Shown here in pieces: positions 5,160-8,005 of a stretch of 33,463 nucleotides of DNA. Under the pieces are notes generated by a model. It was given only the letters and a program-made list of their open reading frames with translations. It did no database searches and was not told the DNA's origin. Position numbers and translations under genes: made by a program. Numbering within the stretch: position 1 is the stretch's first letter; every line of letters starts with the position of its first letter. Source of the DNA: Candidatus Altimarinota bacterium (GTDB taxonomy: Bacteria; Patescibacteriota; Gracilibacteria; BD1-5; UBA6164). The DNA lies in the NCBI GenBank assembly GCA_020629795.1, contig JAHDCR010000008.1, positions 1-33,463 of the forward strand. The letters run 5' to 3'.

Positions 5160-7034
5160 TTATAACTTTTTTTCTCTAATCTCAGTTAGCAACATTTCAG
5201 TAAATTCTTCTGTTTTCATCACTGATTGATCTTTTGTTTTGTAGTTTCTCACTGCAACACTCTCACTGTTTTCTTCTTCCTCTCCGATAACGAGAATATA
5301 GTTTACATGCATCTTTTCTGCGTTTCTAACTTTTTTATTGAGAGAGTCAGAGCTATCATCTATTTCTACTCTAATACCGGCATCCTTGAGAGCCTTGTAT
5401 ACTGAGTCTGCATAGTCGTTAAACGTTGAAGCAACTGGAACAATTCGTACTTGACGAGGAGCCATCCAGAGAGGAAATGTTCCTGCAAAATGCTCTATAA
5501 ATACTCCCATACCTCTTTCAAGTGATCCAGCTATAGCTCTGTGAATAACTACAGGACGTTCTTTCTCACCTTTTTCATTAGTAAACTCAAGTTCGAATCT
5601 TTCTGGAAGATTAAAATCACACTGGATCGTTGCAAGCTGCCACTCTCGTCCAATTGCATCCTTGAACATAAAGTCGAGCTTAGGTCCGTAAAATGCTGCT
5701 TCTCACTCAACTCGCTTATATGGAAGCTGATTTTCCTTTGCTGCCTCCTCAAGTGCTGCTTCAGCTATTTTCCAAACATCATCTGTTCAAAGGTATTTTG
5801 ATTTATCCTCACCTCTTACAGAGAGAGAGACCCAATAATCATTTGTAAGTCAAAGAGTAGTATAGAACTCTTTGATGATATCAGTAATTGTTTTAACTTC
5901 GTCTTTGATTTGTTCTACGCGACAAAACAAATGTCCATCATCTTGAGTAATCGCTCTTACTCGAGTAAGACCTGAAAGTTGACCAGATTTCTCATCTCTA
6001 TAAATAGTTGCTGGCTCAAAATATCGAACTGGCATATCTCTATAAGAGAACTGATTATCAGCAAATATTTGCATGTGGTGCGGGCAGTTCATCGGTTTCA
6101 TAATAAACTTATCTTCTTTTCCTTGTACTCTAAAAAGTTCATCACCAAATTTTGCTGCATGACCGGATGTTTCATAGAGGGCTTCTTTTGCTATATGTGG
6201 AGTCCAAACTCTGTCATACCCACGAGTTTTATGTAAATCCCAGAGATAGTCCTCAAGCTCTTTTCTAATAACCATCCCTGCTGGTTGCATGAGTGGAAGA
6301 CCAGGACCTATAAGCTCCGAAACAGAAAAGAGTTTTAGTTTCGCACCAAGTATTCTATGATCTCGTTTTTTAGCTTCTTCGAGCATATGAAGATGTTTAT
6401 CAAGAGTATCTTTATCATCAAAAGCGTATGCATAAATACGAGTAAGTTGCTGATTATCAGCATTTCCCATCCAGTATGCACCAGCCACTCTTGCCAATTT
6501 AAAACTATTAGCATCGAGAGAGCTTGTAGAGGCTACATGCTCTGGTCCAGCACACATATCTATAAACTTGAGATTTCTTACTTGATCTCCATCCATGTGA
6601 GACGCAAAATCAAAATATCATTTTTCTTGGATATGAATCTGTACATCAGTTGCCTGACCTCATTTTCCTGTATTTATATAGAAGCTAATTTTCCCAGTTA
6701 TTTTCTCTGCGTTTTTAAATTTCCCAGATTCTAGCATATCAACTATTTCTGATTTAAAATCTTCTCCCATAAGTTTAAGTAGCTCACGAGCCTCGTCATA
6801 TGAGACTTCAAACATCTGAAAGTCTTGGTTTTGTGAAATGATTTTTTTCATAGATTTCTCTATCTTTTTGAGATCTTTATCAGAAAATTCTTGAGCCCCA
6901 AAATCAAAATCATAGTAAAATCAGTCCTCAGTAAAAGGTCATGTTGCGCATTTTGTTTCAGGAAAATTTTGCTGCACTGCCTGTGCCATGATATGCGCGA
7001 GCGAGTGTCTTTTTGTATCAAGTATATATTCCAT
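5160..7034 (-). CDS. thrS: Threonyl-tRNA synthetase lacking the TGS domain
   Basis: Charges tRNA-Thr with threonine in the cytoplasm; 624 aa. Residues 9-19 (RHSLAHIMAQA) carry the HxxxH zinc/editing motif, followed by DMCAGPEHV in place of the usual C-x-GPH, so the N2-type editing domain is present with a one-residue insertion. The class II core follows: motif 1 around LPLMQPAGMVIRKELE, MNCPHHM with the zinc cysteine, motif 2 RYFEPATIYRDEKSG, GLTRVRAITQDDGHLFC, and motif 3 VVIHRAIAGSLERGM. The anticodon-binding domain runs from WMAPRQVRIVPV to the end. E. coli ThrRS has a TGS domain of about 60 residues first; here the protein begins at the editing domain. The start ATG 7034 lies 18 nt after the leader terminator. 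Expression is probably controlled by the attenuator at 7053-7223. Confidence 0.96.
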
Positions 7035-7056
7035 GTATATAAATTAAAATATAAAA

Positions 7057-7080
7057 AATCTCTCTATTTCTAGAGAGATT
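7057..7080 (-). terminator. Attenuator terminator in the thrS leader
   Basis: A perfect 10-bp stem (aatctctcta 7057-7066 and tagagagatt 7071-7080, loop TTTC) is followed on the minus strand by six consecutive U (7053-7058 region) and then, 18 nt on, the thrS ATG. No minus-strand gene precedes it except the 14-codon leader peptide, so it is a terminator inside a 5' leader rather than the end of an upstream operon. Confidence 0.8.
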
Positions 7081-7119
7081 TGTAAAAGTGTATTTTATAG
7101 CATCTTACAAAATCCCTCT
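7072..7119 (-). promoter_or_regulatory. Antiterminator pairing of the thrS leader
   Basis: On the minus strand, segment 2 (AGAGGGATTTTGTAA, 7119-7105) is complementary to segment 3 (TTACAAATCTCTCT, 7085-7072) except for one bulged U and one G-U pair. Segment 3 is also the 5' arm of the terminator, so 2:3 and 3:4 pairings exclude each other. Segment 2 can alternatively fold back on CTCTCT at the end of the leader peptide coding sequence (1:2 pairing). A ribosome stalled on the threonine codons would cover segment 1 and favour 2:3, allowing readthrough into thrS. Confidence 0.7.
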
Positions 7120-7162
7120 AATAGAGAGTAGTTGTTGTAGTGGTTACAAGTAATGCTAGCAT
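7118..7162 (-). CDS. thrS leader peptide with six consecutive Thr codons
   Basis: The minus-strand ORF is ATG CTA GCA TTA CTT GTA, then ACC ACT ACA ACA ACT ACT, then CTC TAT TAG. It encodes MLALLVTTTTTTLY, 14 aa. Six threonine codons in a row sit right at the segment-1/segment-2 junction of the attenuator and precede threonyl-tRNA synthetase, so the codon content matches the enzyme's own substrate. This is the logic of thrL, hisL or pheM leaders in enterobacteria. All four-fold codon variety (ACC, ACT, ACA) shows it is not a simple repeat. The ATG lies about 27 nt after the predicted start of transcription. The purine run AAAGAAAG about 8 nt upstream is a weak ribosome binding site. The function is inferred from architecture. 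Confidence 0.75.
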   Translation of the reverse strand: MLALLVTTTTTTLY

Positions 7163-7192
7163 ATGCGTGCTTTCTTTAATCAATTAACTAGG

Positions 7193-7200
7193 TGTATAAT
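7193..7200 (+). promoter_or_regulatory. Extended -10 for the HD-domain gene
   Basis: TGTATAAT (7193-7200) is a perfect extended -10 box on the plus strand, 58 nt before the start codon at 7265. The -35 region is not recognisable. It overlaps the minus-strand thrS promoter, so the two divergent promoters may compete for polymerase. Confidence 0.4.
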
Positions 7201-7223
7201 ATAATAGTGAGTATGAAAGTCAA
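7196..7223 (-). promoter_or_regulatory. Promoter of the thrS leader
   Basis: On the minus strand TTGACT (7223-7218) and TATTAT (7201-7196) are separated by 16 bp, giving a start near 7189, 27 nt upstream of the leader peptide ATG. It overlaps the divergent -10 box of the HD-domain gene. Confidence 0.6.
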
Positions 7224-7264: not shown

Positions 7265-8005
7265 ATGAAAAAACTTGTATATAAATCCAGAGAAGAAAGT
7301 CTTCTTATTGATTCTCTTTCTCAAAGCCAACTCATTACTTATGAGCAACTTTTGTATATTAAAAAACTGTATAACGAAAACGTTCCATACCATAATTTTC
7401 TCCATGCACTCAAAGTAGCAGAGTGAGTACTTAAATTGCCTAGAGGGGAGTATAATATTATAGAAATACAAAGTCTCTTTATTTCAGCACTTTTTCATGA
7501 TGCGGGACATACCGGTACAGCATGAGACTTAGATGAATTTAGGTCACTAGATATGGCCTTTAAGTGAATTATAGATTTTGAACAAAAATATAACTATGCA
7601 TGAATAGATTATTCCATTGTGAGAAAATCTATAGTTTGAACTGTCTTTAAAAATAGAGCCACCAATAAGGATCCATATGCAATACTCCTTGCAGATTTAG
7701 ATGTATCAACAGTATGAATGAGCTTCCCAGAATTTTTGTATTATGCTGATTTTCCAATCTCCGTTGAATTATGAAAAGTTATAGATGAATGGATAGAGGA
7801 TCTGAGTTACTTTAAATTTCTTATGTGAGTAGATAAAAATATTTTCAGAAATCAAATTACAAGAGAGATTTTTCCTGAATACTTAAAAAATACAAAGAAA
7901 TATATAACAACTTGATGCCAAGATATTATGAAAATATATGAATATTGGAGAGAAAATAATATCACTTATCAAGAATTTGAAGATTTTTACTATAAAAACC
8001 TCTAA
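7265..8005 (+). CDS. HD-domain metal-dependent phosphohydrolase
   Basis: A 246-aa protein with an HD fold. Metal-ligand motifs are Y-H43-NFL-H47-A, then ALF-H78-D79-AGH82-TG, then a later DLD in the LLADLDVST segment. The YHNxxHA...LFHDxGHxG spacing resembles cyclic-nucleotide phosphodiesterase-type HD domains (PDEase_I) more than ppGpp hydrolases, but the substrate is not decided. No transmembrane segment or extra sensor domain is visible. A good purine-rich GAAGAGGTG lies about 12 nt before ATG 7265. Several conserved-looking glycines are UGA. The gene is divergent from thrS and followed 61 nt later by the PilT-like gene. Confidence 0.8.

Follow-up and report, generated by a model that had tools for sequence, protein, structure and literature searches.

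The region upstream of thrS, the gene of threonyl-tRNA synthetase, in the window (the whole stretch of DNA that was analysed, 33,463 nucleotides) is very probably a ribosome-mediated transcription attenuator, judging from its sequence and from comparison with relatives. The mechanism of this thrS attenuator is classical, its target gene is rare for attenuation and the lineage is new. An earlier note on this DNA had read the region as classical attenuation with four mutually exclusive segments, a reading that now appears supported by conservation, covariation and geometry. The features concerned are the following:

7196-7223, minus strand: promoter TTGACT-16-TATTAT (TTGACT at 7223-7218, 16 nt, TATTAT at 7201-7196), 10/12 match
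7158-7171, minus strand: hairpin of three pairs around the start codon of the leader, AGC (7171-7169) pairing with GCT (7160-7158)
7118-7162, minus strand: leader ORF of 14 codons, MLALLVTTTTTTLY*, with homologous Thr-rich leaders in relatives
7142-7155, minus strand: nucleotide motif CATTACTTGTAACC (family consensus CANNACTTGNAACC), almost invariant columns
7127-7144, minus strand: run of six Thr codons, ACC ACT ACA ACA ACT ACT, the proposed threonine sensor
7114-7128, minus strand: hairpin of segment 1:2 (CTCTCT-ATT-AGAGGG), which extends over the last part of the ORF with the stop codon
7097-7120, minus strand: segment 2, 5' half of the antiterminator, including the leader stop codon
7072-7093, minus strand: segment 3, common to the antiterminator (2:3) and the terminator (3:4)
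7053-7081, minus strand: intrinsic terminator (3:4), AAATCTCTCTA-GAAA-TAGAGAGATTT, 11 pairs with a T-rich tail
5160-7034, minus strand: thrS, threonyl-tRNA synthetase, 624 aa in code 25, from translation, Pfam and TIGR00418

We found the promoter and the 14-codon ORF with its six Thr codons, followed by thrS, exactly where the earlier note had placed them. The ORF reads ATG CTA GCA TTA CTT GTA ACC ACT ACA ACA ACT ACT CTC TAT TAG, and when the whole window was shuffled 150 times with its dinucleotides preserved, no ORF had a run of at least five Thr codons. The thrS product matched TIGR00418 with an E-value of 9e-193 and contained the Pfam core and anticodon-binding domains; seven in-frame UGA codons of the gene are read as Gly. 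Since the upstream neighbour of the leader, an ORF on the plus strand (7265-8005), is oriented away from it, the terminator is part of the thrS transcript.

Folding of the leader RNA gave a z-score of -4.3. The terminator was present as the earlier note described it, except that it has 11 pairs, one more than given there, closed by a GAAA loop. The pairing that excludes it was also recovered, as a 2:3 duplex between approximately 7120-7097 and 7093-7072 with an energy of -17.7 kcal/mol (z-score of -5.4, none of 200 shuffles equally good). The leader stop codon TAG itself lies inside segment 2. The 1:2 hairpin, for which an outer helix between 7158-7152 and 7104-7098 was predicted, occurs in the window and in many relatives, in a variable form that is less uniform than 2:3 and 3:4. 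The untranslated full-length leader was predicted to favour 2:3, so that termination without translation would depend on the order of folding.

Firmicutes thrS is under T-box control and an antiterminator/terminator pair exists here, so one could imagine that a T-box or another metabolite riboswitch governs the terminator. The earlier note had seen no T-box core, and indeed neither the window nor ten related loci contained a match to a T-box or riboswitch of Rfam, the T-box search of the window being made at gathering score. The window matched no Rfam family at all at that score, and a relaxed search up to an E-value of 10 returned only chance-level matches. Moreover, the gap between promoter and terminator is only about 140 nt and is occupied by the ORF and segment 2, and the part that varies in length among leaders is the run of Thr codons. 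The probability of such a riboswitch is thus close to nil.

To compare the locus with its relatives, we used 80 thrS loci from public genomes. Many of them carried a short Thr-rich ORF upstream with a terminator behind it, and thrS lay at most 1.5 kb behind a Thr-rich leader ORF in 59 of the 64 loci examined. These 59 leaders encode 58 distinct peptides with 2-10 Thr each, Thr making up 34% of the residues. The longest run has 10 Thr (MYICLTTTTTTTTTTI); further examples are MMHLGTTTTTTTSQ and VNLAQLVTITTTTTTSILK. Leaders poor in Thr also exist, such as MSLAQLVTTNIISMK and MVAKLGTSTG..., and threonine may have only a weak effect on those that contain two or three Thr codons.

We searched genomes with two covariance models, whose E-values are rough: R1, built from 27 leaders mainly of the window's own family, and R2, built from SR1-type leaders. 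R1 matched 63 of the 288 genomes of the class. In the window's family it matched 47 of the 48 genomes, including all 33 of good quality. One of these 47 (G288) matched in its proS leader only, its thrS contig being cut. In the SR1/Absconditabacteria family, to which the complete SR1 genome RAAC1 belongs, R2 matched 28 of 49 genomes. The earlier note would have counted the lack of a conserved short Thr-rich ORF upstream of thrS in close relatives as a refutation; such an ORF is conserved across the family, and also in Absconditabacteria and part of the sister family. Several weak R1 matches turned out to be plain terminators or coding sequence and were discarded (L093-L096 in the genome of the window; L140, L141, and L144 in relatives). 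No relatives of the element were found in the viral contigs searched.

The sister family retained the leader, often with fewer Thr, and sometimes with a gene for a VKOR protein or a response-regulator-like gene between leader and thrS. Insertions of this kind, NUDIX-like, response-regulator-like or VKOR-family, were observed at L258/L222 (G209:C11), L231, L237, and L238, the first two types being identified by eye only; they suggest that the leader controls a longer operon. The earlier note had also mentioned lineages that read UGA as Gly. The device is not tied to that code, since some leader-bearing genomes have a thrS without in-frame UGA; the leader of the window itself contains no UGA.

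A promoter of the form TTGAC(A/T)-16-TANANT was found at the corresponding position in most of the 31 leaders compared, with a mean match of 10.0/12 against 8.3 in shuffles, and in most leaders the -10 box ended 24-33 nt upstream of the leader start. Transcripts are thus expected to begin before the peptide, and the comparison speaks against starts downstream of it, which the earlier note had named as a refutation of its reading.

The compensatory changes in 2:3 and 3:4 that the earlier note had proposed to look for emerged when the leaders of relatives were aligned. Nearly all leaders have strong terminators with T tails. On a structure-blind MAFFT alignment of 27 leaders, 93% of the cells of terminator 3:4 were paired and 9 of its 10 pairs showed changes on both sides; its covariation reached 0.579, compared to 0.277 in shuffled alignments (0/500 as high). 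The corresponding values for 2:3 were 0.261 and 0.188 (0/500), and 2:3 also scored above all slid versions. Tested leader by leader against 200 shuffles, the 2:3 duplex had at most three equally good competitors in most of the 31 leaders, with three clear exceptions (L028, L033, and L018) in which it was weak or no better than chance. When segment 3 was swapped between leaders, none of 20,000 permutations paired equally well with segment 2. Segments 2, 3, and 4 vary in concert: at one position, in the register of each leader's own predicted pairing, 12 leaders have G-C-G, 12 have U-A-U and two have A-U-A. Because related sequences may beat shuffles through common ancestry, the slid control and these three-way changes weigh more than the shuffles.

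These data bear directly on the idea that the terminator is partial and constitutive and that the Thr-rich ORF lies before thrS by chance, with no regulation at all. Thr-rich peptides, antiterminator and promoter are conserved over several families and, as the permutations indicate, segment 3 is matched to the segment 2 of its own leader; we regard this explanation as extremely unlikely.

In the attenuator that we favour, we infer that the ORF is translated, that ribosomes stall in it, that transcription terminates in vivo and that the outcome responds to threonine. RNA polymerase would start about 25 nt upstream of the leader ORF. With ample Thr-tRNA, the ribosome would pass the Thr codons, reach the stop codon in segment 2 and mask this segment; the 3:4 terminator would then form and transcription would stop before thrS. 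With charged tRNA-Thr scarce, the ribosome would stall in the Thr run and leave segment 2 free to form 2:3, which would block the terminator, and thrS would be transcribed. We modelled the geometry for 31 leaders, assuming that the leading edge of the ribosome lies about 12 nt past the A-site codon's first base. The mean energy of 2:3 was -13.3 kcal/mol for a ribosome on the first Thr codon, -10.3 kcal/mol for one on the last and -2.1 kcal/mol for one on the stop codon; that of the terminator was -11.6 kcal/mol. In each of the 31 modelled leaders, the antiterminator was accessible when the ribosome stood on the first Thr codon and covered when it stood on the stop codon. The energies thus suggest that a stall in the Thr codons promotes antitermination and that completion of the peptide promotes termination.

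Two features of the leader RNA go beyond the classical attenuation scheme, which has neither of them. The first is the hairpin around the start codon, formed by AGC/GCU in the window and otherwise by AGG/CCU or AAG/CUU; 91% of its cells were paired, 13 cells had changed on both sides, and none of 500 shuffles scored as high. The second is the motif CANNACTTGNAACC, almost fixed within the family down to third codon positions, which points to a constraint on RNA or DNA and not on the peptide alone. It includes the codon ACC, the usual one at this place in the leaders, which is almost unused in the thrS of many relatives. That hairpin and motif control leader initiation or the timing of the polymerase is a guess on our part. 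In some leaders only, there is a partial pairing of AGCACAA with UUGUGCU, the latter located where segment 2 ends.

The invariant nucleotides and the covarying start-codon hairpin do suggest control of leader initiation, and the leader could accordingly be thought to act on the translation of thrS, by coupling, reinitiation or a functional micropeptide, instead of on termination. This would leave aside the strong T-tailed terminators of nearly all leaders; besides, other genes can separate the leader from thrS by hundreds of bases, and the C-terminus of the peptide is not conserved. Such translational action has, in our opinion, a minimal probability.

Autoregulation is known for E. coli thrS, and ThrRS might similarly repress its own mRNA here through a tRNA-like operator, with ORF and terminator being incidental. 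The sequence CUUGUAA of the leader resembles the anticodon loop of tRNA-Thr(UGU). We rejected it as an anticodon mimic: it has no flanking stem and is not conserved, the anticodon position varying between GTA, GAA, GGA, and GGT. An operator would also leave unaccounted for both the runs of up to 10 Thr codons and the covariation of terminator and antiterminator. We therefore consider an operator very unlikely.

The attenuator has several known counterparts. The enterobacterial thr operon leader (Rfam RF00506, Thr_leader) likewise combines a Thr-rich peptide, an antiterminator and a terminator in classical attenuation, but it controls thrABC biosynthesis and has Ile codons as well, whereas the target here is thrS and the lineage Gracilibacteria/Absconditabacteria. 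The window element did not match the RF00506 model, either at gathering score or at E-values up to 10. Leader peptides also control the cognate synthetase in gamma-proteobacterial pheST and in leuS and trpS of Streptomyces, for which attenuators were described (PMC1262725), although for other amino acids and in other phyla. The hisS/hisZ genes of Bacillus (hisS paralogs) have leader peptides too (PMC2965389), hence a leader before a synthetase outside Proteobacteria and Actinobacteria, but for histidine and in Firmicutes. The translational operator of E. coli thrS and the Firmicutes thrS T-box share the target gene and differ in the sensor, which is ThrRS itself in the former and uncharged tRNA bound directly by RNA in the latter.

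A further case is Streptomyces lividans TK24, in which thrL (MKRVRPFLETTPGFVPAR) was proposed as a leader peptide of thrS (PMC8079986). This is also a short Thr-containing ORF before thrS, but it has only two Thr, a leaderless start and no clear terminator, in contrast to the up to ten Thr, the clear terminator and antiterminator and the covariation over many genomes observed here. The earlier note knew of no leader-peptide attenuator of thrS in Patescibacteria or in any UGA-Gly lineage. We found none described for this lineage either, and elsewhere only the weak S. lividans proposal. Our search retrieved no literature on attenuation in Gracilibacteria, Absconditabacteria or Patescibacteria; this is no proof of absence, as subscription papers mostly fell outside it.

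The bacteria concerned are ultra-small, uncultured and probably dependent on other organisms, and almost nothing is known about their regulation. The thrS attenuator offers a testable switch, defined at the sequence level and linked to amino acid supply, that several families have retained and that can be annotated with the covariance models. In the literature consulted, most reports of leader-peptide attenuation concern Proteobacteria and Actinobacteria, and Bacillus and others contribute single cases; it now seems to be standard equipment in the Gracilibacteria/Absconditabacteria branch too. If amino acids are scavenged from host or prey, such leaders would sense that supply.

A broader proposal, to which we give slightly less than an even chance, is that leader-peptide attenuation is the general amino-acid-responsive control in Gracilibacteria/Absconditabacteria, in the role that T-boxes play in Firmicutes, covering thrS, proS, ilvB, aspartokinase, the M20-type peptidase and the trxB operon. 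It would include, for Thr leaders, an additional RNA element absent from classical attenuators (the start-codon hairpin and the invariant CANNACUUGNAACC) that controls leader translation or timing. The other leader/terminator units of the lineage are candidates, chance finds made through weak scores of one model.

Within the genus, proS leaders with PLxP were found at L132 (in the genome of the window, C6:16307-16459, minus strand), L138, and L185-L191. Their ORFs (MNTKQNRNLQPLIPSI, MKQLLNWHLQPLNLSS, and MNKQMNLHLQPLNPSQ) contain one or two Pro codons and are accompanied by an antiterminator and a terminator, and the nucleotides ACCTGCAACCCCT are mostly retained. No convincing leader ORF was found in the genus before pheS, hisS, leuS, ileS or serS. 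In several genomes, a conserved strong T-tailed hairpin ends 18-21 nt before the start of valS (L148, L150, L154, and L155), with no clear leader ORF.

Approximately seven genomes have a Phe/Trp-rich leader (MTSTWNFFYFFFSKNGR..., TSTWNFFYFFFSKNGR...) with a terminator, at L253 (in the genome of the window, C10:119819-119989, plus strand) and L300-L305, followed by small unknown proteins and, in several, by the trxB operon. We considered whether CTTGGAAC in the Phe leader is the RNA motif of the Thr leader, an idea weakened by a conserved Ser/Thr-Trp-Asn peptide that can explain it. Leaders rich in Leu, Ile, and Val precede terminators at L255, L294, L297, and L256 (MQTVFTALILVLQKSFLK, MNCKSTITLLLLLGNILK, MQKIFTQTLLLILGTSLR, and MNYQSTNTLLLILRTSLR). 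At L255 and L294 one small ORF and then a peptidase of the M20/ArgE-DapE type follow, so that attenuation may govern the scavenging of peptides.

In another family of the class, L221 (G036:C1:78236-78372, minus strand) has a MNKFALIITTTTTTTIM leader, an antiterminator and a terminator before an aspartokinase-like amino acid kinase, an arrangement of the thr-operon type. Finally, L295 (G291:C42:2073-2225, minus strand) has a MNLTQTSILVLVLIYQ leader and a terminator before the large subunit of acetolactate synthase (ilvB), resembling the classical ilv leaders.
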